Assembly: GCA_035578905.1 (NCBI GenBank)
Contig: JAQJVL010000103.1
Span: 2,269,717 to 2,333,716 of the forward strand
Reading direction: 5' to 3'
DNA: 64,000 nt
Source: Stictocephala bisonia
Lineage: Eukaryota; Arthropoda; Insecta; Hemiptera; Membracidae
The position numbers and the translations under genes were made by a program. Below the pieces are notes generated by a model that worked only from the letters and a program-made list of their open reading frames with translations, searched no databases and was not told the DNA's origin. Shown piece after piece: positions 10,272-63,822 of this stretch; position 1 is the stretch's first letter, and every line of letters starts with the position of its first letter.

Positions 10272-10279
10272 GAGCCGAT

Positions 10280-14754: not shown

Positions 14755-14815
14755 AATCTAACCTTACCAACGAAACCTAACCTAAAATAACCTAACGAAC
14801 CCAACCTAACCTAAT
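14755..14815 (+). repeat. Degenerate CCTAA-rich stretch
   Basis: aacctaacctaaaataacct and similar blocks resemble decayed insect telomere pentamers. It is not a clean array. Confidence 0.45.
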
Positions 14816-19232: not shown

Positions 19233-22217
<2,985 letters not shown>

Positions 22218-43228: not shown

Positions 43229-43381
43229 AAGCTTCTGCAGCATCACCGAGGACAACGAAGGGAGTGCTTATGACGAAAATGATGACTCAGTTCCTTTCGA
43301 TGTATCTGAAATTGAGCAAGAAACGCAAACAGATGCAGCAGCTCGATCCTCGCCTCAGCCTGTGCCTCCGAAACAAGTGTC
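43229..43381 (+). pseudogene. MADF-domain protein, exon 3, 5' part (split by insertion)
   Basis: Acceptor tttgttttcag at 43218-43228. The frame set by exon 2 reads SFCSITEDNEGSAYDENDDS, then VPFDVSEIEQETQTDAAARS and PQPVPPKQV. This is an acidic Ser/Gln-rich linker typical between MADF and BESS regions. At 43381 the palindrome begins; translation would run into the C-rich minisatellite. The frame resumes exactly at 63823. Confidence 0.8.
43376..43381 (+). repeat. Target-site duplication, left copy (AGTGTC)
   Basis: Six bases identical to 63817-63822, directly abutting the first base of the left arm. A 6-bp duplication is the size made by Maverick/Polinton integration. Confidence 0.9.
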
Positions 43382-43433
43382 AGTAGGGAAAAGATGCCGA
43401 TATTGCCGTCAAAATTTAAGACTTCTGCGTCAA

Positions 43434-43880
43434 ATCCCCTCCCCTCTCCCCCCCTCTCACTGACTATCCACCCCTTCCCCCTTCCACCTCCCCTCTCCCC
43501 CCCTCTCACTGACTATCCACCCCTTCCCCCTTCCACCTCCCCCCTCCCCCCTCTCACTGACTATCCAGCCCTTCCTCCTTCCACCTCCCCCCTCTCCCCT
43601 CTCACTGACTATCCACCCCTTCCCCCTTCCACCCCCCCTCCCCCCTCTCACTGACTATCCAGCCCTTCCACCTCCCCCCTCTCCCCCTCTCACTGACTAT
43701 CCACCCCTTCCCCCTTCACCTCCCCCCTCTCCCCCTCTCACTGACTATCCAGCCCTTCCCCCTTCCACCTACCCCCTCTCCCCCTCTCACTGACTATCCA
43801 GCCCTTCCGCCTTCCACCTCCCCCCTCTCCCCTCTCACTGACTATCCAGCCCTTCCCCCTTCCACCTCCCCCCTCTCACT
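43434..43880 (+). repeat. C-rich sub-terminal minisatellite, left arm
   Basis: About ten units of 40-50 bp built on ctcactgactatccagccct, ccttccacctcc and a C-run. Unit length varies through C-run length. The G-rich complement has four or more G-runs per unit and could form G-quadruplexes. The Pro/Ser/Leu-rich frames seen here are by-products of the repeat. Confidence 0.9.
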
Positions 43881-43890
43881 GGAGCTATCA

Positions 43891-43913
43891 ACCTAACCTA
43901 ACCTAACCTAAAC
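43891..43913 (+). repeat. CCTAA array, left arm
   Basis: Four consecutive CCTAA units followed by ACCCTG, immediately inside the minisatellite. Mirrored at 63285-63307 as TTAGG. Confidence 0.85.
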
Positions 43914-45800
43914 CCTGTATTTGTATTTCTATTAACCCATATTTTTAAAAACCGTATTGATAATTACATTACTACATTTAAATACAGATTTCATATAGAC
44001 TTAATGCTATATTCATGTGGTACCTAAGCTACGGTACGTTTGCGACTATGTAATGTATAGAGAACAAAGCCTTGCTCGATCGTAGCATACATGGCCTTAT
44101 AAAACTTCTTTCAGAATAAATTGTATATACTTTATTACATATTTAGTTATGTGTAATAGCTTAGGGCATCCTATCAGGTTGTTTCAAATCATTATTAGTA
44201 ATAAATGAGAATTATATGATGACTTGTGTAAGGTTTGCTTAGCGTATCTAGGACAAACTAGATGATGTGGAACCCGAACCACTTGTTACTGACAAACTAG
44301 GACACTCTAGTGAGGTCCTACGATTAGCACTACTAGTGGTCAGCCGTACTATCTTAAACATTGTTTCTCTCTCTATACATGTAACCATTAACTACCAGAC
44401 CTTTAGCTTACCAAACATATCATATTTAATCTTTAAGGTTCAACAATACCGAACCTACTTCACATAGCTTGATGATAAATAAAAGCAGCACTTGTGAACA
44501 TAATATTGATTACTCGCTTCAGCTCAGGAGAGCGACCTTGAAACATGTCAGTTCTCACTTCCCCGTTGTTCTGTAGACACATGTTCTGAACCCATTTAGC
44601 ATAAGTCTGTAGTTTAGATTGTTCTACAGGAAGTTTGTCTCGGGTGTTACGTGTAATATAGTAAAATACATAAACACTTAGTTTTACACAAGAAATCCAC
44701 CAGTTTGATAGGAATTATTGTACTATATATCCTTTGTCTAGGCTTTATTGATTCTCCTTATATAACTCTAATTACAAGATTTTTTAAAGCTCTTTCCATG
44801 CTTCTCATATCCAACAAATGTGTAGCTAAACCAACAACGAACGTACTAGGCTACTTTTTTATATCCGTAATTACAAGACCACACAACGAAAACATACATG
44901 AACATTGGCCGGTAGAATGTTAGTTAAAAAGCCCCTGAAGGAACGTCAACCTCCTCTACCATCTCAGGGGTCACTACTTTTGAGGCTCACTCATATTAAC
45001 GTTTATATTTATCTAAGTTTTGGAAATGTTGAGTGATGTACCTCGGGTCGAGGCTCCCAACAGGCCTAGGCCAAATAAACCTGCTGGTACGGAGACCCCA
45101 TCTAGCAATAATAAACGTGTCTCTCACTCTATGTTAGCACTAAGCAAGACAGGTTAGGTGACGCAAGAGTGTGGTTCAAGTTGAGGAAAGTGATTGGAAG
45201 GTTACACAGTTGATGCAATTGAAGAAATCAATCTTATCTATCATTTCAACCATTCATGGGTTACGGATCGTCAGGTCACTTCAGAGCCCACACATACAAA
45301 TACTCGTACCGAACGAGGGCCCGGACTGCGACTCGAGGTCTTACGGAGGTTAATCCAGCCCCAAGCTGCAGGACTGATTCAGGTCTTACGCGTTTTACGG
45401 CCGCCTTGGAAAACAGTCGGGCTTTTTTATTGAATTTGGGCCGCCCTCACCTCGATGGTACGGTGATTGCACTCTGTACTGGGTTACGGACCGTCAGACC
45501 ACCCCAGAGCCCATACACATCATGGAACTACAAATTACCGTAGTATCACACATAGAAACGACAGGCTCATTTTGAATTTCTTCAAGAACACACAACAATG
45601 TTATTAATTAGGAAACAGGTACTTACATCCCATCCAATTACGTCACACCAAACAGTCTGCGGATAAAATTGTAACATTCAGAGCTAGACACACGTTTTTA
45701 TTACTAGGAAAACCTACATTTATTGTTCATAACAAATACTTTTTGAAAACGGACTATTTTCAAGCTAAAGATTTACTATTTAAAACAAACTTTTTTTGTA
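43914..45800. other. Non-coding stretch between array and polymerase gene, left arm
   Basis: No recognised gene. It contains two ~40-bp direct repeats built on gggttacggaycgtcag and cagagccca (near 45256 and 45480). Three short overlapping open frames at 45171-45543 have no domain. This stretch lies downstream of the polymerase gene. Confidence 0.5.
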
Positions 45801-45805
45801 AGTCT

Positions 45806-45811
45806 TTTATT
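45806..45811 (-). terminator. Poly(A) signal of the left polymerase gene
   Basis: AATAAA on the minus strand about 200 bp after the stop codon; the mirrored copy is at 61386-61391. Confidence 0.5.
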
Positions 45812-46008
45812 GTTTAATATTTTTATATTTGTCTTTTATAGGGCTAACTCAGGTTATAGCAACACAGGTAAACCTGGGTTAACCTTACGTGGGGTTGATA
45901 AAATCCCGGTTAACACAACGTGGATAAATCATATAACGCCGCAATAATACTGCATACGCAGTGTTATTTTCTTCCATTTAAGATTGTAGATATGTCTTTT
46001 AGAGTTTA

Positions 46009-49000
46009 TCATTCTTTAGACGTAATTGTCTCATCTATTTTTCTCCTCTTTATAATTGGTTGTCCATCTTTAGCCTCTTCCCGTTCACGTTTAATTCTAT
46101 AGTGTCCATAAGCCAGTGTGTTTACTCCATCGTTTAATATGTACCGCTTATCATCGTAAGGTGAAAGTGACAATTTTGAAATATTCTGAGTATACAGTTG
46201 GTGACGGTCACTTCTAATGTTTAGAGCGGATGTTGTTTTTAACACGTGATGAAAAAGACATTGTTTATATTGCTCATGTTTTAATTCTTTCTTTATCACC
46301 ACTCTAGACACACCTTTAGCGACTCGCTTTGACATCATTTCCTCCATATTCTCGTCTGAGGCTTCTTTGAAGTCCTCCTCCTTTGATTTAAGAACAGAGT
46401 AACATTTAGCTCTAAGGCCAACGATCTCTACTGGTGGTTTTCCATTCATTTCATCCTTAAATTTTCCTAGTTTCTTTTTGTTGTTCAAACTGTAACATGG
46501 ATGTTCCTCAGGATAATCTGATGTATCAAATAGGTCAAGATCATTTCTCATATCTTCGTAGATGTTTGCTGTTGTAATATGATAAAACAGACTGTCAGTA
46601 TCTGTCATGCATAATTTTACGTTTGCACCATATTTCTTTACTGTCCAATTATAATGGAAATCGTACATTGTGAGTTTACTGATGTCCAGTACAGTTAGGC
46701 CTACGTAAATTGGCTTGTTTAGCAATATACTTTGTTTCTTTAAGGTCAATCCGACAAGGTCTTCATTGTAAGCAAAGAAATTTGTTAATCTGGGACTTGC
46801 AGTCCACTTTAGCAATTGCTTTTCATTATTTACTAGTTTAAAATCTATCCTAGATCTTACATTTTCCAAACTCTTCCCGTACGTAGCGTTGTTCATTAAT
46901 TTAAAAAAATCTTTTTCAAAATTATTTTTGGCACATTTTCTTTTCTCTGTATTAAAGTTTATGAAAGGTGCAAGCCATGTACTCTGTTTAAATGCAAGAA
47001 TCCTATGTACTTTCTTCAGTTGAAGACCTAAGTCAAGGTACAGCTTGAGGTTTCTGTAATGCAAAATGTATTTCTCCTTATCTTCCAATGTGGTTAAAAG
47101 TTTATGTACTTTAGCTGGCTTATGGTTGAGTTCATCTAGTAACAATTTTGAATACGGTGACAGCATATTTTCTGTGACTACTTTACGTTCTGGAGCTAAT
47201 GGATAATCAGAATGGAGATCATGTAGGTGTTGAGGATAGTAGAGATCCACTTCTAAAATATATCCCATTTCCGAATTATCCGGTATTTCCCTAATATTCA
47301 ATTGATCTATTTCTTGTTGTTGTAACCACTTGAATTCAGAATGAGGGAGCGGCTCACTTAAGGCTTTTCCATAAAGATTGTTACAATCGAGGTATACGAG
47401 GTAACTATTAGGTGTTGTGGGATCGAAATCAGGAAGGTAAGGGTTGTTTGCTTTGGCGAATCTATGTGGAATCATTGCAACACCACCTCTAACACCATTC
47501 TCAATAAATAGATGCTGATTTATGTCTGTTAACAATTCAATGCTAACATTCGTCATCTTTAACATGGAGTTCCATGCGAGACCAGGAGCAGAATACACAT
47601 TACAGGGATCAATTTCATAATATTGGAGGCTCGTGTTTCGGAAATTTTCAAAAACGTCAGCCAATAGGAGAACATCTGTCATAAGATACAGATCGTGGTA
47701 GTCTTTCATTGTAGTCATATTGAAGCTATCCCATACAAGTTGGGCGTGTAAGTAGTCATTGTCTGTGATTGGTGTTTTGGTTAGGTCGTTGTAGAATGCT
47801 TCTTTCGAAGGAAGTTGTGTCTCTGAAAGTTTGGATGTCTCAGTCAACCAATTGTATGGAAATACACCTTTACGGATCAGAAGATGTTGATTAGATTCAA
47901 TGCATTGATGGAGAATTGGAAATTTAGTTGAGCCTTCTGGAGCAAGGTTACTAACAAGAGTGTCAAGTGAAGCATTCAGAAATTGAAGGGAGTCAAGAAA
48001 ACGAAGAGACTCTAGTGTTACGGATATATAACGCTCGCTAGTAGTTGCGATGCAAGATATCTTTTCCTTTTTAAATTTACCAAAGCCTTGGATTAAGTGA
48101 TGGCAATCGTAACCTCTCAGGTTGTGAAAAAAAACAGGGATATGCTGAGGGACTTTGTATTGCAAATTGCAATCATTGTGAGCAGCTCCAATATATTTTC
48201 CATTAATGTGGTTGTGGTTTCTAACCTTATCTTCCCCAAGTGGTTTCTTACATAAATGACAGTCAGTAGCATTTTCAAAGTTTTCATTGTCCTCATGTGT
48301 CATCACCATCGGTACGTTATTTTTCAGTATTGGTACCAAAATGTTGGCTTCTTCGATCAGTTTGTTGAGGAACGTATCAATGACGTTAGGACCTGTATAC
48401 ACTACTGGTGGTTTTATAGCTTTTCCATCATTGTCAATAATGACGTAGCAAAAGCCTGATGGAATGTGCTTTGATACGTTTGTGGTGTGGGATGTTCCTG
48501 GATTGTTCAAAGATGTTGTTATAGGTACAATGTAGGACTCGAAGTCGCAATAGATGGTGAATGGGACCTTGTAACATAGTGTGTAGTTTTTAAAGTACAT
48601 CAACTTGTCATTCTCATTGGGTAGTTTGGTCTTTTGAACACCATGAGGAGTACATAAGGGTTCATGCTCAGTTAACAGTTCATTTGATGAAAAGCGGTGG
48701 AGGCAATAATTACAGTAATAAGTCGTATGTCCATGTTTTGTCAGATGTGAGAGAAGGCGGGACATGTTGGTAATCAAACAATAGTGTTGCTTACCTTCCG
48801 TATTTGATAGAAGTAAAAGATTAACATGTGTCTCCCTATTTTTCTCCTTTGTTATTCTAGTTGGATATAGCTCACCATTTTCATAAGCAAAGATATTGAT
48901 GGAAATTGTTTGGTTGAGCTTCTCAAACTTATCGATTTGTGTTAGATCAAAGACTGGATAATTGATACCTGTCATATTAATTTCATGCTCAAACTGTTTG

Positions 49001-50067
49001 AAATAATTTACTCTGTTGTTTTGATGTGTATCTGGATGAATTTGTGCCAAGACTGACCACATAAAACATTTTTGATCATTATTCTTAATATTCAAAACTC
49101 CTTTGCTAGTTTGAGCAAGACTTTTAGGTGTTGGTATGTATGTTGATCTACAGATTTCCCCAGGAGTACAGTTTGGTACGTGTTTTTGTAACAATTCTTT
49201 AGTTGGAAATGACTGAATACAATAGTTGCAAAAATGTACTTTCTTGTGATCTTTGGTTGGACGTGGTAAAATCTTGGAAAGGTCAGATATCAAGCAGTAA
49301 TGTGTGTTCTCTTCTTCATTCAATATCAACAAGTTAACATGCTTGCGATTTTTCAGTGTAGTCGCTCTTATGACATGTATTTCCCCATTTTCGTACCCAA
49401 AAACATTTATAGACAGAGATGGATTATTTTCTTCAAAGAGATCTAAATCTGTAATCTTAACTGGGTATTCAATGCCTGACATGTTGATTTCCTGCTCAAA
49501 ATGTTTGTAGTACTGCACTCTGTAATTTTTATTCCCGTCATGACCATGTAGTGCACACAAAACAGACCAAAGAAAACATTTATTGTCTGTGTTTTTAATA
49601 TTAATTATTCCTTTAGTAACTACCAAACTTTTAGGGGTGGGTATGTAAGAAGCTGCTACAAGGGCTTTGTATTTTACCATACATAAGTCTATCTGTTCAA
49701 CATTGTTTAGTTGCCAACCACTTCCGTCTCTGATATACTTTGTCATACTCTCCAGTATCTTATCAAGGGCTTCCATAAATTGCTTATCTAGATCATCAGA
49801 TGACAACAAAGCCCTAGTTTTACCGTGGAAGGTAGGGGATGAGTAAATTTCAGAATTGTTTATAGTTTTGAAAAAGATTACACGAACAGCAATGTACCAT
49901 TTAAGGCTTCTCATTTTACCCAATTGGGACCTAATTTCGTCGAGAATATTGTTTTTCTTATCAGTTAGAGCACTCAAAACATCATTGTAATCGGTGGAAT
50001 ACTTTTTGCATACTTTTTTGTATGAGACATTTAAAAGATTACCATTTAGAGCACTTGTGGTAGCCAT
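46009..50067 (-). CDS. Protein-primed family-B DNA polymerase, left copy
   Basis: 1352 aa. I place the start at ATG 50067 (context AAGATGGCT). The frame is open 12 codons further upstream, but that extension begins with TTG. Architecture and motif positions are as in the right copy at 57130-61188. This copy has Ile, Thr and Leu at residues 551, 742 and 1299, where the other has Lys, Ala and Phe. Every catalytic motif is present and there is no stop or frameshift, so it should be functional. It is transcribed toward the left end of the element and away from the other copy. Confidence 0.92.
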   Translation of the reverse strand: MATTSALNGNLLNVSYKKVCKKYSTDYNDVLSALTDKKNNILDEIRSQLGKMRSLKWYIAVRVIFFKTINNSEIYSSPTFHGKTRALLSSDDLDKQFMEALDKILESMTKYIRDGSGWQLNNVEQIDLCMVKYKALVAASYIPTPKSLVVTKGIINIKNTDNKCFLWSVLCALHGHDGNKNYRVQYYKHFEQEINMSGIEYPVKITDLDLFEENNPSLSINVFGYENGEIHVIRATTLKNRKHVNLLILNEEENTHYCLISDLSKILPRPTKDHKKVHFCNYCIQSFPTKELLQKHVPNCTPGEICRSTYIPTPKSLAQTSKGVLNIKNNDQKCFMWSVLAQIHPDTHQNNRVNYFKQFEHEINMTGINYPVFDLTQIDKFEKLNQTISINIFAYENGELYPTRITKEKNRETHVNLLLLSNTEGKQHYCLITNMSRLLSHLTKHGHTTYYCNYCLHRFSSNELLTEHEPLCTPHGVQKTKLPNENDKLMYFKNYTLCYKVPFTIYCDFESYIVPITTSLNNPGTSHTTNVSKHIPSGFCYVIIDNDGKAIKPPVVYTGPNVIDTFLNKLIEEANILVPILKNNVPMVMTHEDNENFENATDCHLCKKPLGEDKVRNHNHINGKYIGAAHNDCNLQYKVPQHIPVFFHNLRGYDCHHLIQGFGKFKKEKISCIATTSERYISVTLESLRFLDSLQFLNASLDTLVSNLAPEGSTKFPILHQCIESNQHLLIRKGVFPYNWLTETSKLSETQLPSKEAFYNDLTKTPITDNDYLHAQLVWDSFNMTTMKDYHDLYLMTDVLLLADVFENFRNTSLQYYEIDPCNVYSAPGLAWNSMLKMTNVSIELLTDINQHLFIENGVRGGVAMIPHRFAKANNPYLPDFDPTTPNSYLVYLDCNNLYGKALSEPLPHSEFKWLQQQEIDQLNIREIPDNSEMGYILEVDLYYPQHLHDLHSDYPLAPERKVVTENMLSPYSKLLLDELNHKPAKVHKLLTTLEDKEKYILHYRNLKLYLDLGLQLKKVHRILAFKQSTWLAPFINFNTEKRKCAKNNFEKDFFKLMNNATYGKSLENVRSRIDFKLVNNEKQLLKWTASPRLTNFFAYNEDLVGLTLKKQSILLNKPIYVGLTVLDISKLTMYDFHYNWTVKKYGANVKLCMTDTDSLFYHITTANIYEDMRNDLDLFDTSDYPEEHPCYSLNNKKKLGKFKDEMNGKPPVEIVGLRAKCYSVLKSKEEDFKEASDENMEEMMSKRVAKGVSRVVIKKELKHEQYKQCLFHHVLKTTSALNIRSDRHQLYTQNISKLSLSPYDDKRYILNDGVNTLAYGHYRIKREREEAKDGQPIIKRRKIDETITSKE

Positions 50068-50150
50068 CTTAACAGAACTTATGTAATGCTGACACAAAGA
50101 CAAGCAAAGTACAAATGATACTTTTAAAAGGTGTCCTATATATATATATA
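50068..50150 (-). promoter_or_regulatory. Core promoter of the left polymerase gene
   Basis: Minus-strand TATATATATA at about 50137-50147, and an initiator-like TCATTT whose A lies near 50116, about 30 bp downstream. The predicted leader is ~49 nt before the ATG. Mirror of 57051-57129. Confidence 0.6.
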
Positions 50151-50495
50151 CGTTTAAGAGAACAGTAGCTTTGGAAAGTTACTACGTTAATTAAGTAAAC
50201 ACTTAACAATCACAAGTTAATTTTTAACCAACTTGTCACTTTGACAGTCAAATAAAGACTAAGATTTTTTTTCTAAGTACTCTATATAAGTAATCTTGTG
50301 AAAAACCGTAAAGAGAACGGTAGCTTGATGAAAAGTAACACGTTAACCAAGTAAATTCTCTACTACTAATGGAAAATTCCCGATATCCTATCACTTTAAC
50401 AGTCAAATAAAGACTATGACTTTTTATCTAAGTACTGTATATAAGTAATCTTGTGGAAAACCGTAAAGAGAATGGTAACTTAATGAAAAGTCTTA
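50150..50495 (-). repeat. Promoter-region tandem repeats, left arm
   Basis: Three related units of ~140-160 bp (gtaaagagaacggtagct, gtcaaataaagact, tatataagtaatcttgtg), mirrored at 56702-57047. Each contains a TATA-like block; the real TATA box lies in the unit nearest the gene. Confidence 0.7.
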
Positions 50496-53360
50496 ATTTG
50501 TAACAATATGCTATCACCTAATCGCTATGCTAATAGTTTAGATAACAATTACTATTATTATAAAAATAGTTGACACGAACCTCTAAAAGCAAAAATAAAC
50601 TGCAGGCTAATAACCCAAAGATGAATATTAAAATATACAAGAGTGATTTTAAAAAAATATAACAAAACAAGTTTCAACTTTAAAAGCCGTTTAAATGTTA
50701 AATCAATTTATATCTGGTATGTGGTAATGTTAAATCAATATATGTGGTAATGATTTATAATACACAACTTGAAATGATTTATAATATATATATTTCGAAA
50801 TAAATTCATTGAAACTAAAAAGTATTGAAATTAAATCAGATTGTTAGAAGCAATTTAAAAACTTAGATAAAATATTTAATGTTAATTAAAGTAAACCAAG
50901 TGTGTGTTACTAATGGCTTTTCTATCAGGAAAAACTTATTAATTTAATTCAAAAAACAAAATGTATGTAAATACAATTGAAACGTAATATAGAAACTATA
51001 AAGACAGAAATAATATTTACTTAAAGAAGTTATGTAAAGTATTGTAAAAGTACAACAAAATACTATAGACTCAACAGCAAATTAAGACAATGTATATGCG
51101 ATAATTTACTATGATCAATTTAATGAAGATAGTACTTACCACCTGAATGTCTGAAATATCAGTCAGTATTTTCCAGCTTTAATTTTAAAGTTAGGAGAAA
51201 CCTTGAAAAAACTGTTTAACTAGTTGCAAAAATAAGTAATACTTTAAGAGTTACATACCAAATTGTATCAAGTCATTCTTGAACAAAACATTTATTAAAA
51301 TGTTTTCTACACAACTCAACCGTTGCTCTCCAAACAATAGTACGAGCTAATCTTACGTTATCTCGCCAATGACCATTTGCATATCTTAAGTGACTCAGTT
51401 AATCTTTGCACTGCTACCATTAAACAAAAATCGATATTTCTAAACTGTTTTTCTTCATTGATGCTATTGAAATAAAAATATATCATGTCCCATATTACGT
51501 TCCGATTTTTTGGTTGCATTCAAATGATATAAATACTAAAACATGGTTAAAAATTTATGAAAATAAATATATAAACGGGATATGTCAGTTTTTAATAGTA
51601 CTTTAAATTTTGAAAACAGCGTTTCTGACTGAGGAAGGAGAAAAACTTATGGCTGGAATTTCATGCCTTTATTATCATGAAAATTAAAATGGTTCAAGAA
51701 GTACATAAAATATACATTGCAGGATATGCGCATTAATACTAGACCATTGTTTTCATATTTAAATTAAAGCTTCAAATTTACCAAACCTCCAGAGAAAAAA
51801 AATCTTTGCAAGTACATATCATATGGAAAAGTATATATTTGCTGTGTTCATTTTATTTACAATTTAATGATCATGTAAAAGAAAATATATAAGTTAACTC
51901 TAAATATTATTTCTGCCTTAATAAGATTATTGTGCTACTTATTTTTAAATACTTTCCAAAACACATAAATAGATAACAATGGAAATACAGTTAAAAGACA
52001 ACAAATATCAAAAATTTAATAAAATAACTTTGTTAAATTTGTTAAGAGAATTATGTTCTATTATCTATCAGACCAATACTACGTGGTTCAGATTCCAAGT
52101 AAAGCTGTAGATCTATTAGTTGCCCTGGCTATTGGGTGAATAATGGACAAGTCTTTTTAAGGAAGACAATATTAGTTAATAACAATTACTACTATCGTTT
52201 ATGTAAATTCAGTGCACTCCTACACTACTCATATTCAGCCATATCTCTACAATGTCTTGTAATGAATAATTAAATAAAATATATTTAATTTTCCCTTCAA
52301 ATCAAATAAAATATACAAATTGACTTTGTGAATTTTATTAGAGAGTAGACCATAAGCATTATTTTAACGAGTTAATTTACATTATCATGATTTATCGTAA
52401 ATATTTTGTAATATTATCTTTCACTTATTATGTCTGCATTTTAACATATGCTGATAAATTAGTGAAATGTACGAATTATATAAATTTATATATTTTGAGC
52501 TAGTTTAAACATTAATGTTATATTTTTATTATTAATGTACGGTATTATAATATACGATACAGAACTAATGATTTTCAAGGAATGGTTCCAAAAATCTTGT
52601 AAATCCTACAAAAGTTATTTTTAAGAATTTTCTTTAGTTTACCGTAAAAAGTTTAAATTTAAACACAGTTTCACTACATAAATATACACTTAAATTTGAC
52701 ACGTTTATAATAGTATTAATTTAATAACATAAACATTTATATTTCTAAGGACCAATTGGCTGATACCTAGGATTGAAATAATTTTTTGAACATTACATAA
52801 AACCTGTGATATTCCACACATGACTCTTAATAGACCAATCCACCTATCTCTACACACACGATTCCTTAGGACACACCCTACACCCACCACTCATCCTACA
52901 GACAAAACTCCTAGAGAACTACCCATCCACCATAAAAACACTATTTCTTCATATAATAATGTTTTAAAATAACATTATTACACTGTAAGATATGTTTAAT
53001 ATAGCTAAACACACACACAAAACATATCAAACCACACAAACTCTAAATACAAGATTTTTGACAAACCTCCCACCTAGTAAACACAATGTTACTCTGTTAT
53101 ATCACCTGACTCTCCATTGCATTTGACTTTTGATTGTCCATCTACCTATCCATAAGCACATGTACAAGACAGCTCCATAACCCTACCTATCCATTAGTAA
53201 GACTCTCCTACCCACTTAGCCAACATGAGAACTACCCATTCACCATAAAAACAATATTGCTTCATATAATCATGTTTTAAAATAACATTATTACACTATA
53301 AGATAGGTTTAATATAGCTAAAGACCTAAAGTGTTTCCTAAAATTCTGCTTTTCAACTAA
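50496..53360. other. AT-rich non-coding inner part of the left arm
   Basis: No open frame worth calling. The 61-codon frame at 52705-52890 has no ATG-supported context or domain. It contains a truncated copy of the dispersed repeat family (52066-52270). Confidence 0.6.
52066..52270 (-). repeat. Dispersed repeat family, truncated copy 7, inside the left arm
   Basis: cagaccaatactacgtggtt, ttgccctggctattggg and catattcagccatatctcta match the reverse orientation of the family. Only one half of the repeat is present. The same truncation is found at 54927-55133. Confidence 0.75.
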
Positions 53361-53368
53361 AAAATACG

Positions 53369-53580
53369 AGAGAAAGTTAGGTTTAAAAGCAATGAACACA
53401 GAAAAAGGTAGGTTTTAAAAAAATGAACATAGAAAAAGATAGGTTTAAAAGCAATGAACACAGAAAAAGGTAGGTTTAAAAAAAATGAACATAGAAAAAG
53501 ATAGGTTTAAAAGCAATGAACACAGAAAAAGTTAGGTTTAAAAAAATTGAACATAGAAAAAGTTAGGTTAGCAAACATCA
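53369..53580 (+). repeat. Central minisatellite, left side
   Basis: Alternating ~30-bp subunits, gcaatgaacacagaaaaagg and aaaatgaacatagaaaaaga, each with aggttt, form a ~60-bp higher-order unit repeated about three times. Mirrored at about 53622-53831, so the array spans the symmetry centre as an inverted pair. Confidence 0.85.
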
Positions 53581-53585
53581 GAAAA

Positions 53586-53614
53586 GTTCAGTTAAAATTG
53601 ACTTTTAACTGAAC
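53586..53614. repeat. Symmetry centre: 12-bp stem, 5-nt loop
   Basis: gttcagttaaaa-ttgac-ttttaactgaac. The loop TTGAC (53598-53602) is the only unpaired sequence between the 10.2 kb arms, as expected of a snap-back or hairpin-joined dimer. Confidence 0.9.
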
Positions 53615-53834
53615 TTTTCGGATGTTTGCTAACCTAACTTTTTCTATGTTCAATTTTTTTAAACCTAACTTTTTCTGTGTTCATTGCTTTTAAACCTATC
53701 TTTTTCTATGTTCATTTTTTTTAAACCACCTTTTTCTGTGTTCATTGCTTTTAAACCTATCTTTTTCTATGTTCATTTTTTTAAAACCTACCTTTTTCTG
53801 TGTTCATTGCTTTTAAACCTAACTTTCTCTCGTA

Positions 53835-56700
53835 TTTTTTAGTTGAAAAGCAGAATTTTAGGAAACACTTTAGGTCTTTAGCTATATTAAACCTATCTTA
53901 TAGTGTAATAATGTTATTTTAAAACATGATTATATGAAGCAATATTGTTTTTATGGTGAATGGGTAGTTCTCATGTTGGCTAAGTGGGTAGGAGAGTCTT
54001 ACTAATGGATAGGTAGGGTTATGGAGCTGTCTTGTACATGTGCTTATGGATAGGTAGATGGACAATCAAAAGTCAAATGCAATGGAGAGTCAGGTGATAT
54101 AACAGAGTAACATTGTGTTTACTAGGTGGGAGGTTTGTCAAAAATCTTGTATTTAGAGTTTGTGTGGTTTGATATGTTTTGTGTGTGTGTTTAGCTATAT
54201 TAAACATATCTTACAGTGTAATAATGTTATTTTAAAACATTATTATATGAAGAAATAGTGTTTTTATGGTGGATGGGTAGTTCTCTAGGAGTTTTGTCTG
54301 TAGGATGAGTGGTGGGTGTAGGGTGTGTCCTAAGGAATCGTGTGTGTAGAGATAGGTGGATTGGTCTATTAAGAGTCATGTGTGGAATATCACAGGTTTT
54401 ATGTAATGTTCAAAAAATTATTTCAATCCTAGGTATCAGCCAATTGGTCCTTAGAAATATAAATGTTTATGTTATTAAATTAATACTATTATAAACGTGT
54501 CAAATTTAAGTGTATATTTATGTAGTGAAACTGTGTTTAAATTTAAACTTTTTACGGTAAACTAAAGAAAATTCTTAAAAATAACTTTTGTAGGATTTAC
54601 AAGATTTTTGGAACCATTCCTTGAAAATCATTAGTTCTGTATCGTATATTATAATACCGTACATTAATAATAAAAATATAACATTAATGTTTAAACTAGC
54701 TCAAAATATATAAATTTATATAATTCGTACATTTCACTAATTTATCAGCATATGTTAAAATGCAGACATAATAAGTGAAAGATAATATTACAAAATATTT
54801 ACGATAAATCATGATAATGTAAATTAACTCGTTAAAATAATGCTTATGGTCTACTCTCTAATAAAATTCACAAAGTCAATTTGTATATTTTATTTGATTT
54901 GAAGGGAAAATTAAATATATTTTATTTAATTATTCATTACAAGACATTGTAGAGATATGGCTGAATATGAGTAGTGTAGGAGTGCACTGAATTTACATAA
55001 ACGATAGTAGTAATTGTTATTAACTAATATTGTCTTCCTTAAAAAGACTTGTCCATTATTCACCCAATAGCCAGGGCAACTAATAGATCTACAGCTTTAC
55101 TTGGAATCTGAACCACGTAGTATTGGTCTGATAGATAATAGAACATAATTCTCTTAACAAATTTAACAAAGTTATTTTATTAAATTTTTGATATTTGTTG
55201 TCTTTTAACTGTATTTCCATTGTTATCTATTTATGTGTTTTGGAAAGTATTTAAAAATAAGTAGCACAATAATCTTATTAAGGCAGAAATAATATTTAGA
55301 GTTAACTTATATATTTTCTTTTACATGATCATTAAATTGTAAATAAAATGAACACAGCAAATATATACTTTTCCATATGATATGTACTTGCAAAGATTTT
55401 TTTTCTCTGGAGGTTTGGTAAATTTGAAGCTTTAATTTAAATATGAAAACAATGGTCTAGTATTAATGCGCATATCCTGCAATGTATATTTTATGTACTT
55501 CTTGAACCATTTTAATTTTCATGATAATAAAGGCATGAAATTCCAGCCATAAGTTTTTCTCCTTCCTCAGTCAGAAACGCTGTTTTCAAAATTTAAAGTA
55601 CTATTAAAAACTGACATATCCCGTTTATATATTTATTTTCATAAATTTTTAACCATGTTTTAGTATTTATATCATTTGAATGCAACCAAAAAATCGGAAC
55701 GTAATATGGGACATGATATATTTTTATTTCAATAGCATCAATGAAGAAAAACAGTTTAGAAATATCGATTTTTGTTTAATGGTAGCAGTGCAAAGATTAA
55801 CTGAGTCACTTAAGATATGCAAATGGTCATTGGCGAGATAACGTAAGATTAGCTCGTACTATTGTTTGGAGAGCAACGGTTGAGTTGTGTAGAAAACATT
55901 TTAATAAATGTTTTGTTCAAGAATGACTTGATACAATTTGGTATGTAACTCTTAAAGTATTACTTATTTTTGCAACTAGTTAAACAGTTTTTTCAAGGTT
56001 TCTCCTAACTTTAAAATTAAAGCTGGAAAATACTGACTGATATTTCAGACATTCAGGTGGTAAGTACTATCTTCATTAAATTGATCATAGTAAATTATCG
56101 CATATACATTGTCTTAATTTGCTGTTGAGTCTATAGTATTTTGTTGTACTTTTACAATACTTTACATAACTTCTTTAAGTAAATATTATTTCTGTCTTTA
56201 TAGTTTCTATATTACGTTTCAATTGTATTTACATACATTTTGTTTTTTGAATTAAATTAATAAGTTTTTCCTGATAGAAAAGCCATTAGTAACACACACT
56301 TGGTTTACTTTAATTAACATTAAATATTTTATCTAAGTTTTTAAATTGCTTCTAACAATCTGATTTAATTTCAATACTTTTTAGTTTCAATGAATTTATT
56401 TCGAAATATATATATTATAAATCATTTCAAGTTGTGTATTATAAATCATTACCACATATATTGATTTAACATTACCACATACCAGATATAAATTGATTTA
56501 ACATTTAAACGGCTTTTAAAGTTGAAACTTGTTTTGTTATATTTTTTTAAAATCACTCTTGTATATTTTAATATTCATCTTTGGGTTATTAGCCTGCAGT
56601 TTATTTTTGCTTTTAGAGGTTCGTGTCAACTATTTTTATAATAATAGTAATTGTTATCTAAACTATTAGCAAAGCGATTAGGTGATAGCATATTGTTACA
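53835..56700. other. AT-rich non-coding inner part of the right arm
   Basis: Mirror of 50496-53360. No gene supported on either strand. Confidence 0.6.
54927..55133 (+). repeat. Dispersed repeat family, copy 8, inside the right arm
   Basis: Mirror of 52066-52270 with the same truncation point. The insertion therefore predates the formation of the palindrome, or was copied between arms. Confidence 0.75.
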
Positions 56701-56701
56701 A

Positions 56702-57047
56702 ATTAAGACTTTTCATTAAGTTACCATTCTCTTTACGGTTTTCCACAAGATTACTTATATACAGTACTTAGATAAAAAGTCATAGTCTTTATTTGACTGT
56801 TAAAGTGATAGGATATCGGGAATTTTCCATTAGTAGTAGAGAATTTACTTGGTTAACGTGTTACTTTTCATCAAGCTACCGTTCTCTTTACGGTTTTTCA
56901 CAAGATTACTTATATAGAGTACTTAGAAAAAAAATCTTAGTCTTTATTTGACTGTCAAAGTGACAAGTTGGTTAAAAATTAACTTGTGATTGTTAAGTGT
57001 TTACTTAATTAACGTAGTAACTTTCCAAAGCTACTGTTCTCTTAAAC
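56702..57047 (+). repeat. Promoter-region tandem repeats, right arm
   Basis: Units share accgttctctttacggtttt, acaagattacttatata and agtctttatttgactgt. TATA-like blocks occur at about 56756, 56910 and 57051, spaced ~155 and ~140 bp. The last is the TATA box of the polymerase gene. Confidence 0.7.
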
Positions 57048-57050
57048 GTA

Positions 57051-57129
57051 TATATATATAGGACACCTTTTAAAAGTATCATTTGTACTTTGCTTGTCTT
57101 TGTGTCAGCATTACATAAGTTCTGTTAAG
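57051..57129 (+). promoter_or_regulatory. Core promoter of the right polymerase gene
   Basis: TATATATATA at 57051-57060. TCATTT at 57079-57084 fits the arthropod initiator (TCAKTY), with its A at 57081, 30 bp after the first T of the TATA box. The ATG at 57130 then has a 49-nt leader. It therefore looks like a complete pol II core promoter. Confidence 0.6.
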
Positions 57130-60100
57130 ATGGCTACCACAAGTGCTCTAAATGGTAATCTTTTAAATGTCTCATACAAAAAAGTATGCAAAAAGTATTC
57201 CACCGATTACAATGATGTTTTGAGTGCTCTAACTGATAAGAAAAACAATATTCTCGACGAAATTAGGTCCCAATTGGGTAAAATGAGAAGCCTTAAATGG
57301 TACATTGCTGTTCGTGTAATCTTTTTCAAAACTATAAACAATTCTGAAATTTACTCATCCCCTACCTTCCACGGTAAAACTAGGGCTTTGTTGTCATCTG
57401 ATGATCTAGATAAGCAATTTATGGAAGCCCTTGATAAGATACTGGAGAGTATGACAAAGTATATCAGAGACGGAAGTGGTTGGCAACTAAACAATGTTGA
57501 ACAGATAGACTTATGTATGGTAAAATACAAAGCCCTTGTAGCAGCTTCTTACATACCCACCCCTAAAAGTTTGGTAGTTACTAAAGGAATAATTAATATT
57601 AAAAACACAGACAATAAATGTTTTCTTTGGTCTGTTTTGTGTGCACTACATGGTCATGACGGGAATAAAAATTACAGAGTGCAGTACTACAAACATTTTG
57701 AGCAGGAAATCAACATGTCAGGCATTGAATACCCAGTTAAGATTACAGATTTAGATCTCTTTGAAGAAAATAATCCATCTCTGTCTATAAATGTTTTTGG
57801 GTACGAAAATGGGGAAATACATGTCATAAGAGCGACTACACTGAAAAATCGCAAGCATGTTAACTTGTTGATATTGAATGAAGAAGAGAACACACATTAC
57901 TGCTTGATATCTGACCTTTCCAAGATTTTACCACGTCCAACCAAAGATCACAAGAAAGTACATTTTTGCAACTATTGTATTCAGTCATTTCCAACTAAAG
58001 AATTGTTACAAAAACACGTACCAAACTGTACTCCTGGGGAAATCTGTAGATCAACATACATACCAACACCTAAAAGTCTTGCTCAAACTAGCAAAGGAGT
58101 TTTGAATATTAAGAATAATGATCAAAAATGTTTTATGTGGTCAGTCTTGGCACAAATTCATCCAGATACACATCAAAACAACAGAGTAAATTATTTCAAA
58201 CAGTTTGAGCATGAAATTAATATGACAGGTATCAATTATCCAGTCTTTGATCTAACACAAATCGATAAGTTTGAGAAGCTCAACCAAACAATTTCCATCA
58301 ATATCTTTGCTTATGAAAATGGTGAGCTATATCCAACTAGAATAACAAAGGAGAAAAATAGGGAGACACATGTTAATCTTTTACTTCTATCAAATACGGA
58401 AGGTAAGCAACACTATTGTTTGATTACCAACATGTCCCGCCTTCTCTCACATCTGACAAAACATGGACATACGACTTATTACTGTAATTATTGCCTCCAC
58501 CGCTTTTCATCAAATGAACTGTTAACTGAGCATGAACCCTTATGTACTCCTCATGGTGTTCAAAAGACCAAACTACCCAATGAGAATGACAAGTTGATGT
58601 ACTTTAAAAACTACACACTATGTTACAAGGTCCCATTCACCATCTATTGCGACTTCGAGTCCTACATTGTACCTATAACAACATCTTTGAACAATCCAGG
58701 AACATCCCACACCACAAACGTATCAAAGCACATTCCATCAGGCTTTTGCTACGTCATTATTGACAATGATGGAAAAGCTAAAAAACCACCAGTAGTGTAT
58801 ACAGGTCCTAACGTCATTGATACGTTCCTCAACAAACTGATCGAAGAAGCCAACATTTTGGTACCAATACTGAAAAATAACGTACCGATGGTGATGACAC
58901 ATGAGGACAATGAAAACTTTGAAAATGCTACTGACTGTCATTTATGTAAGAAACCACTTGGGGAAGATAAGGTTAGAAACCACAACCACATTAATGGAAA
59001 ATATATTGGAGCTGCTCACAATGATTGCAATTTGCAATACAAAGTCCCTCAGCATATCCCTGTTTTTTTTCACAACCTGAGAGGTTACGATTGCCATCAC
59101 TTAATCCAAGGCTTTGGTAAATTTAAAAAGGAAAAGATATCTTGCATCGCAACTACTAGCGAGCGTTATATATCCGTAACACTAGAGTCTCTTCGTTTTC
59201 TTGACTCCCTTCAATTTCTGAATGCTTCACTTGACACTCTTGTTAGTAACCTTGCTCCAGAAGGCTCAACTAAATTTCCAATTCTCCATCAATGCATTGA
59301 ATCTAATCAACATCTTCTGATCCGTAAAGGTGTATTTCCATACAATTGGTTGGCTGAGACATCCAAACTTTCAGAGACACAACTTCCTTCGAAAGAAGCA
59401 TTCTACAACGACCTAACCAAAACACCAATCACAGACAATGACTACTTACACGCCCAACTTGTATGGGATAGCTTCAATATGACTACAATGAAAGACTACC
59501 ACGATCTGTATCTTATGACAGATGTTCTCCTATTGGCTGACGTTTTTGAAAATTTCCGAAACACGAGCCTCCAATATTATGAAATTGATCCCTGTAATGT
59601 GTATTCTGCTCCTGGTCTCGCATGGAACTCCATGTTAAAGATGACGAATGTTAGCATTGAATTGTTAACAGACATAAATCAGCATCTATTTATTGAGAAT
59701 GGTGTTAGAGGTGGTGTTGCAATGATTCCACATAGATTCGCCAAAGCAAACAACCCTTACCTTCCTGATTTCGATCCCACAACACCTAATAGTTACCTCG
59801 TATACCTCGATTGTAACAATCTTTATGGAAAAGCCTTAAGTGAGCCGCTCCCTCATTCTGAATTCAAGTGGTTACAACAACAAGAAATAGATCAATTGAA
59901 TATTAGGGAAATACCGGATAATTCGGAAATGGGATATATTTTAGAAGTGGATCTCTACTATCCTCAACACCTACATGATCTCCATTCTGATTATCCATTA
60001 GCTCCAGAACGTAAAGTAGTCACAGAAAATATGCTGTCACCGTATTCAAAATTGTTACTAGATGAACTCAACCATAAGCCAGCTAAAGTACATAAACTTT

Positions 60101-61188
60101 TAACCACATTGGAAGATAAGGAGAAATACATTTTGCATTACAGAAACCTCAAGCTGTACCTTGACTTAGGTCTTCAACTGAAGAAAGTACATAGGATTCT
60201 TGCATTTAAACAGAGTACATGGCTTGCACCTTTCATAAACTTTAATACAGAGAAAAGAAAATGTGCCAAAAATAATTTTGAAAAAGATTTTTTTAAATTA
60301 ATGAACAACGCTACGTACGGGAAGAGTTTGGAAAATGTAAGATCTAGGATAGATTTTAAACTAGTAAATAATGAAAAGCAATTGCTAAAGTGGACTGCAA
60401 GTCCCAGATTAACAAATTTCTTTGCTTACAATGAAGACCTTGTCGGATTGACCTTAAAGAAACAAAGTATATTGCTAAACAAGCCAATTTACGTAGGCCT
60501 AACTGTACTGGACATCAGTAAACTCACAATGTACGATTTCCATTATAATTGGACAGTAAAGAAATATGGTGCAAACGTAAAATTATGCATGACAGATACT
60601 GACAGTCTGTTTTATCATATTACAACAGCAAACATCTACGAAGATATGAGAAATGATCTTGACCTATTTGATACATCAGATTATCCTGAGGAACATCCAT
60701 GTTACAGTTTGAACAACAAAAAGAAACTAGGAAAATTTAAGGATGAAATGAATGGAAAACCACCAGTAGAGATCGTTGGCCTTAGAGCTAAATGTTACTC
60801 TGTTCTTAAATCAAAGGAGGAGGACTTCAAAGAAGCCTCAGACGAGAATATGGAGGAAATGATGTCAAAGCGAGTCGCTAAAGGTGTGTCTAGAGTGGTG
60901 ATAAAGAAAGAATTAAAACATGAGCAATATAAACAATGTCTTTTTCATCACGTGTTAAAAACAACATCCGCTCTAAACATTAGAAGTGACCGTCACCAAC
61001 TGTATACTCAGAATATTTCAAAATTTTCACTTTCACCTTACGATGATAAGCGGTACATATTAAACGATGGAGTAAACACACTGGCTTATGGACACTATAG
61101 AATTAAACGTGAACGGGAAGAGGCTAAAGATGGACAACCAATTATAAAGAGGAGAAAAATAGATGAGACAATTACGTCTAAAGAATGA
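57130..61188 (+). CDS. Protein-primed family-B DNA polymerase, right copy
   Basis: 1352 aa, single exon; the DNA_pol_B_2 family copies linear DNA from a protein primer. Residues 140-300 and 309-473 are a duplicated module: IPTPKSL, KCF.WSVL, SIN.F.YENGE, HVNLL, HYCLI, then a zinc-finger-like C-x2-C-x12-H-x3/4-C. The exonuclease follows with ExoI DFE at 508-510, ExoII HNLRGYD at 648-654 and ExoIII YLMTD at 794-798. Between ExoI and ExoII, residues 603-633 form an endonuclease-VII-like C..C...HNH...H..C unit. Polymerase motif A is DCNNLYG (894-900), motif B KLMNNATYG (1056-1064), motif C DTD (1156-1158), and KCY lies at 1221-1223. The A-to-B distance leaves room for a TPR2-type insertion. The tail is basic (KRRK), a possible nuclear signal. 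Start chosen at ATG 57130 rather than the upstream TTG. It belongs with Polinton, adintovirus and bidnavirus-like polymerases; the exact clade needs a tree. Confidence 0.93.
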   Translation: MATTSALNGNLLNVSYKKVCKKYSTDYNDVLSALTDKKNNILDEIRSQLGKMRSLKWYIAVRVIFFKTINNSEIYSSPTFHGKTRALLSSDDLDKQFMEALDKILESMTKYIRDGSGWQLNNVEQIDLCMVKYKALVAASYIPTPKSLVVTKGIINIKNTDNKCFLWSVLCALHGHDGNKNYRVQYYKHFEQEINMSGIEYPVKITDLDLFEENNPSLSINVFGYENGEIHVIRATTLKNRKHVNLLILNEEENTHYCLISDLSKILPRPTKDHKKVHFCNYCIQSFPTKELLQKHVPNCTPGEICRSTYIPTPKSLAQTSKGVLNIKNNDQKCFMWSVLAQIHPDTHQNNRVNYFKQFEHEINMTGINYPVFDLTQIDKFEKLNQTISINIFAYENGELYPTRITKEKNRETHVNLLLLSNTEGKQHYCLITNMSRLLSHLTKHGHTTYYCNYCLHRFSSNELLTEHEPLCTPHGVQKTKLPNENDKLMYFKNYTLCYKVPFTIYCDFESYIVPITTSLNNPGTSHTTNVSKHIPSGFCYVIIDNDGKAKKPPVVYTGPNVIDTFLNKLIEEANILVPILKNNVPMVMTHEDNENFENATDCHLCKKPLGEDKVRNHNHINGKYIGAAHNDCNLQYKVPQHIPVFFHNLRGYDCHHLIQGFGKFKKEKISCIATTSERYISVTLESLRFLDSLQFLNASLDTLVSNLAPEGSTKFPILHQCIESNQHLLIRKGVFPYNWLAETSKLSETQLPSKEAFYNDLTKTPITDNDYLHAQLVWDSFNMTTMKDYHDLYLMTDVLLLADVFENFRNTSLQYYEIDPCNVYSAPGLAWNSMLKMTNVSIELLTDINQHLFIENGVRGGVAMIPHRFAKANNPYLPDFDPTTPNSYLVYLDCNNLYGKALSEPLPHSEFKWLQQQEIDQLNIREIPDNSEMGYILEVDLYYPQHLHDLHSDYPLAPERKVVTENMLSPYSKLLLDELNHKPAKVHKLLTTLEDKEKYILHYRNLKLYLDLGLQLKKVHRILAFKQSTWLAPFINFNTEKRKCAKNNFEKDFFKLMNNATYGKSLENVRSRIDFKLVNNEKQLLKWTASPRLTNFFAYNEDLVGLTLKKQSILLNKPIYVGLTVLDISKLTMYDFHYNWTVKKYGANVKLCMTDTDSLFYHITTANIYEDMRNDLDLFDTSDYPEEHPCYSLNNKKKLGKFKDEMNGKPPVEIVGLRAKCYSVLKSKEEDFKEASDENMEEMMSKRVAKGVSRVVIKKELKHEQYKQCLFHHVLKTTSALNIRSDRHQLYTQNISKFSLSPYDDKRYILNDGVNTLAYGHYRIKREREEAKDGQPIIKRRKIDETITSKE

Positions 61189-63284
61189 TAAACTCTAAAA
61201 GACATATCTACAATCTTAAATGGAAGAAAATAACACTGCGTATGCAGTATTATTGCGGCGTTATATGATTTATCCACGTTGTGTTAACCGGGATTTTATC
61301 AACCCCACGTAAGGTTAACCCAGGTTTACCTGTGTTGCTATAACCTGAATTAGCCCTATAAAAGACAAATATAAAAATATTAAACAATAAAAGACTTACA
61401 AAAAAAGTTTGTTTTAAATAGTAAATCTTTAGCTTGAAAATAGTCCGTTTTCAAAAAGTATTTGTTATGAACAATAAATGTAGGTTTTCCTAGTAATAAA
61501 AACGTGTGTCTAGCTCTGAATGTTACAATTTTATCCGCAGACTGTTTGGTGTGACGTAATTGGATGGGATGTAAGTACCTGTTTCCTAATTAATAACATT
61601 GTTGTGTGTTCTTGAAGAAATTCAAAATGAGCCTGTCGTTTCTATGTGTGATACTACGGTAATTTGTAGTTCCATGATGTGTATGGGCTCTGGGGTGGTC
61701 TGACGGTCCGTAACCCAGTACAGAGTGCAATCACCGTACCATCGAGGTGAGGGCGGCCCAAATTCAATAAAAAAGCCCGACTGTTTTCCAAGGCGGCCGT
61801 AAAACGCGTAAGACCTGAATCAGTCCTGCATCTTGGGGCTGGATTAACCTCCGTAAGACCTCGAGTCGCAGTCCGGGCCCTCGTTCGGTACGAGTATTTG
61901 TATGTGTGGGCTCTGAAGTGACCTGACGATCCGTAACCCATGAATGGTTGAAATGATAGATAAGATTGATTTCTTCAATTGCATCAACTGTGTAACCTTC
62001 CAATCACTTTCCTCAACTTGAACCACACTCTTGCGTCACCTAACCTGTCTTGCTTAGTGCTAACATAGAGTGAGAGGCACGTTTATTATTGCTAGATGGG
62101 GTCTCCGTACCAGCAGGTTTATTTGGCCTAGGCCTGTTGGGAGCCTCGACCCGAGGTACATCACTCAACATTTCCAAAACTTAGATAAATATAAACGTTA
62201 ATATGAGTGAGCCTCAAAAGTAGTGACCCCTGAGATGGTAGAGGAGGTTGACGTTCCTTCAGGGGCTTTTTAACTAACATTCTACCGGCCAATGTTCATG
62301 TATGTTTTCGTTGTGTGGTCTTGTAATTACGGATATAAAAAAGTAGCCTAGTACGTTCGTTGTTGGTTTAGCTACACATTTGTTGGATATGAGAAGCATG
62401 GAAAGAGCTTTAAAAAATCTTGTAATTAGAGTTATATAAGGAGAATCAATAAAGCCTAGACAAAGGATATATAGTACAATAATTCCTATCAAACTGGTGG
62501 ATTTCTTGTGTAAAACTAAGTGTTTATGTATTTTACTATATTACACGTAACACCCGAGACAAACTTCCTGTAGAACAATCTAAACTACAGACTTATGCTA
62601 AATGGGTTCAGAACATGTGTCTACAGAACAACGGGGAAGTGAGAACTGACATGTTTCAAGGTCGCTCTCCTGAGCTGAAGCGAGTAATCAATATTATGTT
62701 CACAAGTGCTGCTTTTATTTATCATCAAGCTATGTGAAGTAGGTTCGGTATTGTTGAACCTTAAAGATTAAATATGATATGTTTGGTAAGCTAAAGGTCT
62801 GGTAGTTAATGGTTACATGTATAGAGAGAGAAACAATGTTTAAGATAGTACGGCTGACCACTAGTAGTGCTAATCGTAGGACCTCACTAGAGTGTCCTAG
62901 TTTGTCAGTAACAAGTGGTTCGGGTTCCACATCATCTAGTTTGTCCTAGATACGCTAAGCAAACCTTACACAAGTCATCATATAATTCTCATTTATTACT
63001 AATAATGATTTGAAACAACCTGATAGGATGCCCTAAGCTATTACACATAACTAAATATGTAATAAAGTATATACAATTTATTCTGAAAGAAGTTTTATAA
63101 GGCCATGTATGCTACGATCGAGCAAGGCTTTGTTCTCTATACATTACATAGTCGCAAACGTACCGTAGCTTAGGTACCACATGAATATAGCATTAAGTCT
63201 ATATGAAATCTGTATTTAAATGTAGTAATGTAATTATCAATACGGTTTTTAAAAATATGGGTTAATAGAAATACAAATACAGGG
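61189..63284. other. Non-coding stretch downstream of the right polymerase gene
   Basis: Mirror of 43914-46008. No recognisable gene. The cluster of short minus-strand frames (61654-62026) mirrors the one in the left arm. Confidence 0.5.
61386..61391 (+). terminator. Poly(A) signal of the right polymerase gene
   Basis: AATAAA about 200 bp after the TGA at 61186-61188. Confidence 0.5.
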
Positions 63285-63307
63285 TTTAGGTTAGGTTAGG
63301 TTAGGTT
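63285..63307 (-). repeat. TTAGG array, right arm
   Basis: Four to five TTAGG units after cagggtt, mirrored in the left arm. Confidence 0.85.
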
Positions 63308-63317
63308 GATAGCTCCA

Positions 63318-63763
63318 GTGAGAGGGGGGAGGTGGAAGGGGGAAGGGCTGGATAGTCAGTGAGAGGGGAGAGGGGGGAGGTGGAAGGCGGAAGGGCTGGA
63401 TAGTCAGTGAGAGGGGGAGAGGGGGTAGGTGGAAGGGGGAAGGGCTGGATAGTCAGTGAGAGGGGGAGAGGGGGGAGGTGAAGGGGGAAGGGGTGGATAG
63501 TCAGTGAGAGGGGGAGAGGGGGGAGGTGGAAGGGCTGGATAGTCAGTGAGAGGGGGGAGGGGGGGGTGGAAGGGGGAAGGGGTGGATAGTCAGTGAGAGG
63601 GGAGAGGGGGGAGGTGGAAGGAGGAAGGGCTGGATAGTCAGTGAGAGGGGGGAGGGGGGAGGTGGAAGGGGGAAGGGGTGGATAGTCAGTGAGAGGGGGG
63701 GAGAGGGGAGGTGGAAGGGGGAAGGGGTGGATAGTCAGTGAGAGGGGGGGAGAGGGGAGGGGA
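63318..63763 (-). repeat. G-rich sub-terminal minisatellite, right arm
   Basis: agtcagtgagag with G-runs and ggtggaagg, about ten units, the mirror of 43434-43880. The number and order of variant units match the left arm closely, which argues for recent arm duplication or homogenisation. Confidence 0.9.
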
Positions 63764-63816
63764 TTTGACGCAGAAGTCTTAAATTTTGACGGCAATATCG
63801 GCATCTTTTCCCTACT

Positions 63817-63822
63817 AGTGTC
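63817..63822 (+). repeat. Target-site duplication, right copy (AGTGTC)
   Basis: Identical to 43376-43381. The base after it, C63823, completes the Ser codon opened by the last two bases of the left exon part. Confidence 0.9.

Follow-up and report, generated by a model that had tools for sequence, protein, structure and literature searches.

A PolB-encoding element with Polinton-type ends in Stictocephala bisonia (Membracidae), inverted-repeat over its whole length

The palindromic element

The window analysed here comprises 64,000 nucleotides of the genome of Stictocephala bisonia (Hemiptera, Membracidae; assembly GCA_035578905.1, contig JAQJVL010000103.1, here C103, positions 2,269,717 to 2,333,716 of the forward strand). 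It harbors a transposable element at 43382-63816 that is one inverted repeat over all its 20,435 bp. The inverted-repeat scan and an alignment of the arms place the left arm at 43382-53597 (+) and its inverted copy, the right arm, at 53603-63816 (-). Between them, scan and axis folding leave an unpaired loop of 5 nt at 53598-53602. In the alignment, 10,206 of 10,220 columns are identical (99.9%), with nine mismatches and five gap columns; the scan yielded single pieces of 6,533 nt and 3,346 nt whose rounded identity is 100%. This symmetry is far above chance expectation. A first-pass annotation, made from the sequence alone, had described a palindrome perfect to its ends and lacking a unique core. 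The whole-element inverted repeat and the 5-nt loop stand, as does the missing core, since the alignment leaves only 5 nt between the arms. The perfection does not, the arms being 99.9% and not 100% identical.

The left arm starts at 43382 with AGTAGGG and the right arm ends at 63816 with CCCTACT. A 6-bp target-site duplication, AGTGTC, was read in the sequence at 43376-43381 and 63817-63822, as annotated earlier, and the mirror symmetry ends where it begins. The sequence AGTAGGGAAA occurs twice in the window, both times at the element termini (shuffle mean 0.10). Joining the flanks with one AGTGTC restores a single continuous open frame carrying a BESS motif (E 2.4e-5). The end of the symmetry at the duplication and the open frame of the joined flanks are what a clean insertion should show; such a frame is not expected from a fold-back artefact.

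PolB and gene content

The sole long gene encodes PolB (1364 aa). It is present once per arm and reads outward from the axis, at 46009-50103 (-) in the left arm and at 57094-61188 (+) in the right; the two copies differ by 3 residues. Of 7,992 proteins scored in a homology search, 7,477 were retained as matches. Among the 120 listed, the best named homologs belong to Lycorma delicatula (56%); identity to the adintovirus PolB from the Parasteatoda house spider is 50%. No usable match was obtained in Pfam (none above cut-off), PHROGs or PDB sequence searches. An AlphaFold2 model of residues 501-1364 reached a pLDDT of 88.6, and its nine best PDB matches were all phi29 DNA polymerase (TM 0.64-0.69 by target length). 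The model predicts a PolB of the protein-primed phi29 fold, and the homologs place it with adintovirus and Polinton polymerases. Among eight open PolB copies, the ratio of nonsynonymous to synonymous divergence (dN/dS) was 0.14-0.39 in every pair with dS >0.02. An Endonuclease VII-like stretch occurs in 7 of 12 PolB relatives. A resolvase role for it was considered and dropped, as the window PolB has no match at E 0.01.

No RVE integrase was detected in the window's element by the lists of open reading frames (ORFs) or by Pfam on six short arm ORFs, searches that spliced or decayed genes could escape. Genes for an ATPase, a protease or a capsid were not found either, the right arm having no other ORF >106 aa outside the terminal-array frames; spliced genes could again escape. 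Neither hexon, penton and chromodomain integrase nor Rep/NS1 appeared in the ORF lists or in the Pfam scan of the six short ORFs, which was blank. Rfam returned no family at cut-off within 40000-64000. A search of viral contigs identified one relative, L048 (38%), with no inverted repeat >=40 nt; some of its ORFs look capsid- and ATPase-like in our reading of the sequence.

A family of palindromes

The genome (1.68 Gb, 11,105 contigs) was searched with near-axis sequence (window 53740-56700), and matches >800 bases were counted. Shorter matches, mainly to a PolB-adjoining stretch common to the single-PolB relatives described below, were omitted from the count. Scoring covered 40 of the 5,298 candidate places, which makes the contig counts lower bounds. 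Near-axis sequence was found in at least 11 contigs, 10 of which carry an inverted arm pair (C103, C4071, C2433, C8283, C1058, C5535, C7486, C2033, C1453 and C2832). The only single long match among those listed, C1845, breaks off within the arm, and no one-arm insertion with an intact axis is among them. Both arms were covered for C103, C4071, C5535, C8283 and C2033, and C1058 and C2433 in part. PolB is present in both arms of C1453; it is open in both arms of C103 and broken in both of C2033.

Both ends were examined in seven palindromes, and the family ends read AGTAGGG or AGTAGTG. All six palindromes with both ends clean are flanked by exact 6-bp duplications, each different: AGTGTC (C103), CACTGG (C4071), TATAAA (C5535), TATATA within A+T-rich flanks (C1058), GACAGA (C2433) and CAAACT (C2033). 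The duplication of C8283, AGTAAT, adjoins a rough left end, and the palindrome of C7486 stops at the contig end. The check for further copies with duplications of their own, proposed in the first-pass annotation, thus came out in favor of a real mobile element with Polinton-type duplications and ends.

Inverted end pairs matching the terminal 54 bp of the element lie 6.1-11.5 kb apart in C7562 (10445-21976), C4477 (28207-39103), C1766 (26742-38033), C4909 and C470; these are possible further family members and candidate integrase donors. C2433 is a mosaic, its near-axis sequence being ~100% like C103 yet its PolB diverging at dS ~0.09. From this, palindromes seem to exchange modules with other lineages.

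The axis

An axis block, located at 53563-53637 in the window by axis comparison and folding, was recognised in nine of the ten axes searched; it was not found in C2033. In C4071, C8283, C2433 and C1058 the block measures 128 nt, and folding predicts a T whose long stem encloses two side hairpins. C103 and C5535 keep one side hairpin, C1453 and C2832 the other kind, and C7486 neither. With the outer stem removed, the axis interior folds far better than shuffled sequence (z -10.0 in C2433, -7.5 in C4071), and the single hairpin of the window reaches z -8.1. A T-shaped hairpin of the type known from parvoviruses and adeno-associated virus (AAV) is predicted at the axis of four relatives and not in the window itself. 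The plain 5-nt loop, taken for the axis in the first-pass annotation, gives way to the two-hairpin T as the fullest axis form. The mismatch kept at the window axis resembles, as we read the sequence, the scar of a lost hairpin. Loss of a single side hairpin, as in C103 and C5535, is in our reading the outcome expected from copying of a folded strand.

Relatives with one PolB and a second palindrome

Four relatives (C193, C10, C354 and C78), all fully covered, are 12.8-13.3 kb long and contain one PolB and a unique core between terminal repeats of ~1.2 kb. Their ends read AGTA and are flanked by 6-bp duplications; three of these are exact, while the two copies in C193 agree at 5 of 6 positions. 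The C193 core contains three ORF pieces that match the piggyBac-type family DDE_Tnp_1_7 (Pfam), one of them above cut-off. Such decayed transposase pieces are common to the cores of C193, C10 and C78 (L020-L023, L026-L027), as judged by eye for the latter two. A transposase of the piggyBac type would be at odds with 6-bp duplications, and it was rejected as a candidate.

C4503 is a second palindrome, of the single-PolB-relative kind, with arms at 3752-11826 and 12079-19999. The 7,919 paired columns of the arms contain 6 mismatches; a further 158 are gap columns, which we read mostly as one additional ~155-bp tandem unit. Its extra-gene region is 96.5% identical to that of C354 over 2.9 kb. The spacer of 252 nt is unlike the window's axis, and both arms carry identical broken PolB frames. 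Since C4503 is a separate palindrome with another axis, fold-back has occurred at least twice. An extra ORF of 237-318 aa adjoins PolB in C354 (L024:4705-5658, -) and C4503 (L014:7817-8527, +); it matched no Pfam family above cut-off and was not seen in the window's palindrome.

Likeness of the arms

Arms were compared over arm positions 520-9940. Within an element they differ at 7 of 9,419 positions in C103, 10 of 9,403 in C4071, 29 of 9,405 in C5535, 22 of 8,307 in C2033 and 76 of 9,404 in C8283. This corresponds to 0.07-0.31% in the first four and 0.81% in C8283. With gaps counted, the C8283 arms differ at 154 columns, 130 of them within the outer 2 kb. Divergence between elements is 0.31-3.8%, with a maximum of 3.1% once the rough C8283 left arm is excluded. 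In an unrooted tree of the whole span, drawn from the C8283 pair, arms pair by element, with good support for C103, C5535 and C2033. In the tree of the inner third, the C5535 left arm leaves its partner and joins C2033/C1058. All 7 arm differences of C103 and all 22 of C2033 are private. Two one-base PolB deletions are common to both arms of C2033 and occur in none of nine other arms. As both arms of C2033, and likewise of C4503, share their PolB breaks, the arms were equalised after those genes broke. Hairpin copying and gene conversion would both permit this.

Proposed mode of multiplication

The reading preferred here, and held to be rather probable, is that of a PolB-encoding, Polinton-ended element, all 20,435 bp of it one inverted repeat, which multiplies as a self-complementary hairpin copied from a single open end. 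The palindrome would be the replicating and integrating form, with the integrase supplied in trans. Each strand would fold back over its entire length, giving a hairpin that is open on one side only. This reading draws on the inverted pairing of near-axis sequence across the family, the duplications proper to each palindrome, the low divergence between arms, the PolB breaks common to both arms of C2033 and of C4503, the dN/dS of the open PolB copies, the phi29 fold of the model, the strong folding of the axis interior, the loss of one side hairpin in C103 and C5535, and the recurrence of fold-back in C4503.

The proposed cycle would begin with a linear palindrome made or released as a free molecule. 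PolB would start at the identical AGTAGGG ends, probably by protein priming, and displace one strand. The displaced strand would snap back with the axis as its tip, and its single open end would be identical whichever strand was displaced. Restarting there, PolB would copy along the first arm, turn at the tip and return along the second, resulting in a full duplex; mismatch repair during arm pairing would keep the arms alike. Finally, an integrase, probably lent by a fuller relative, would insert both ends 6 bp apart.

Several observations weigh against this mode of multiplication. The C5535 left arm contains a 9-site tract of alleles of the C2033/C1058 lineage, and 4 sites in C4071 and 3 in C8283 are shared with other elements, which indicates that arms are not always equalised. 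The arms of C5535 differ by 0.308%, as much as the right arms of C5535 and C8283 from each other; those of C8283 reach the 0.81% given above, and the C4071 pair is supported in the tree at no more than 0.46. The likeness of the arms could also be maintained by gene conversion in the chromosome. The youngest palindromic PolBs (C103, and the right arms of C4071 and C5535; dS <=0.0024) gave dN/dS values of 0.26-1.54 or none at all and thus do not show constraint during the palindromic stage; one PolB copy is interrupted in C4071 and one in C5535, the other being open. The complete T is present in four of the nine axes having the block, and the C1453 hairpin reaches a z of only -3.1. The TATATA duplication of C1058, in its A+T-rich flanks, is weak alone. 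The C2433 right arm has no PolB match among those listed, the contig being covered in part. No terminal protein, nickase or integrase was identified in the element, and the free, replicating form is inferred, as are a terminal protein and an integrase acting in trans.

An alternative, considered unlikely but the strongest of the competing accounts, is that a Polinton-type element folded once and then moved as an ordinary double-stranded, non-autonomous transposon, its arms kept alike by gene conversion and its axis hairpins without a role. The single-PolB relatives in the same genome, with AGTA at the ends of their ~1.2-kb terminal repeats and duplications of 6 bp, the recombinant tracts between elements and the youngest palindromic PolBs without clear constraint are compatible with such a passive palindrome. 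It leaves the strongly foldable two-hairpin axis of four copies and the repeated fold-back in C4503 unexplained. Less probable still is a version close to the preferred reading and to the first-pass annotation, in which a linear 10.2-kb molecule, closed by a hairpin at one end, is what replicates and each insertion stems from a fresh inverted dimer. The shared axis, predicted in its fullest form to fold like a hairpin telomere, fits this version, and AAV duplex dimers are a described precedent (PMC1131931, in extract). One-arm insertions with an intact axis are lacking among the matches listed, C1845 breaking off inside the arm, and the differing ancestry of the C5535 arms over one tract is hard to derive from a dimer of a single monomer unless it changed later. 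The fold-back style of origin proposed in that annotation is retained. A one-off dimer is abandoned, since a whole family is palindromic and nine of ten axes contain the shared block, and since cored single-PolB relatives and the independent fold-back C4503 are present in the same genome.

Palindromes are a familiar artefact of reads and assemblies, and the contigs of C8283 (20,390 bp, with a rough beginning) and C7486 (23,801 bp) barely exceed the element. An assembly fold-back is nevertheless very improbable and was rejected because six copies stand in unrelated flanks, each with its own exact 6-bp duplication; the continuous frame across the joined insertion site and the private differences of the arms also contradict it. 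Two separate elements inserted head to head would likewise yield inverted copies. This origin, the least credible of all, was rejected on the same axis block shared by nine contigs and the single pair of duplications, at the outer ends, in each palindrome.

Comparison with known systems

The terminal inverted repeats of Polinton/Maverick elements begin with AG. The window's element shares with them 6-bp duplications, AGT...ACT ends and a PolB of the protein-primed type. Target-site duplications of mavirus and Maverick/Polinton elements measure 5-6 bp (PMC8547959, in extract). The window's element differs in that its whole length is inverted repeat; the unique core between shorter repeats, present in C193, C10, C354 and C78, is absent, and no integrase, ATPase, protease or capsid ORF was seen. 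Adintoviruses are defined as animal Polinton-like viruses (PMC11071296, in extract). The common trait is the PolB, with the above 50% identity to that of the Parasteatoda adintovirus; the window's element is palindromic, with hexon, penton and integrase ORFs unseen. Adintovirus PolB has an OTU-like domain at its N-terminus, whereas the model of the window's PolB covers residues 501-1364.

Self-complementary AAV genomes and AAV duplex dimers are self-folding inverted dimers with a T-shaped inverted terminal repeat at the axis, according to an extract of PMC1131931. The likeness is one of architecture and lies in the predicted hairpin axis and the inverted dimer able to fold on itself. The window's element has no visible Rep or capsid ORF but a PolB, Polinton-type ends and 6-bp duplications. 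Bidnaviruses join a PolB of the adintovirus class with parvovirus parts (PMC11071296, in extract). NS1 and capsid ORFs are unseen in the window's element. To our knowledge, bidnavirus genomes are not palindromic. Foldback/Galileo-type transposons have very long terminal inverted repeats, a different transposase class and no known PolB; the very long inverted repeats are the common trait. Truncated endogenous virophages are related in kind and likewise shortened, and their terminal repeats must have been restored afterwards; they differ in retaining a core between repeats of 0.2-2.3 kb (PMC8547959, in extract).

A palindromic Polinton or self-complementary transposon was not found in the open-licence literature searched by title and abstract opening, a scope with subscription papers mostly outside. 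Within that scope, no earlier description was seen of a palindromic body and a hairpin axis combined with PolB, a Polinton-type duplication and ends of the same type. The elements may, with chances put slightly below even, represent a new transposon class with a self-complementary genome, in which Polinton-type open ends are joined via a parvovirus-like T hairpin, strands fold whole and PolB copies from the only open end; a single priming site and a single gene would then be enough, given an integrase borrowed from elsewhere. If so, a transposon genome can do with one kind of end and no unique core, and self-complementary AAV genomes have a counterpart in nature made of Polinton parts. The family would offer a handle on how protein-primed elements rebuild their ends, how PolB and parvovirus-like parts came together, bidnaviruses being an example, and what allows a chromosome to retain a palindrome of 20 kb.

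Tandem arrays, insertion site and other features of the window

A tandem-repeat scan identified 48-bp arrays just within both ends of the element (43438-43877 and 63320-63760), one strand of which is purine-rich. Pyrimidine-rich repeats were also seen by eye in the terminal repeats of C10 and C78. Arrays of 31/62 bp adjoin the axis at 53369-53569 and 53631-53830.

Close to the joined BESS-motif frame, a DDE_Tnp_4 (PIF/Harbinger-type) transposase is encoded at 41855-42775, with its best named relative in Ischnura elegans (61%). BESS-type accessory genes are found paired with Harbinger transposases. Judging by the sequence, the BESS-motif gene that the palindrome splits is probably such an accessory gene, belonging to a Harbinger transposon.

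Elsewhere in the window, a CA/TG dinucleotide tract of over 1 kb (~19200-20550) is open in several frames. Further inverted repeats, 88-96% complementary, lie at 1928-2647/4295-5000, 31924-32124/33769-33969 and 22199-22387/22465-22653 and are perhaps other transposons.

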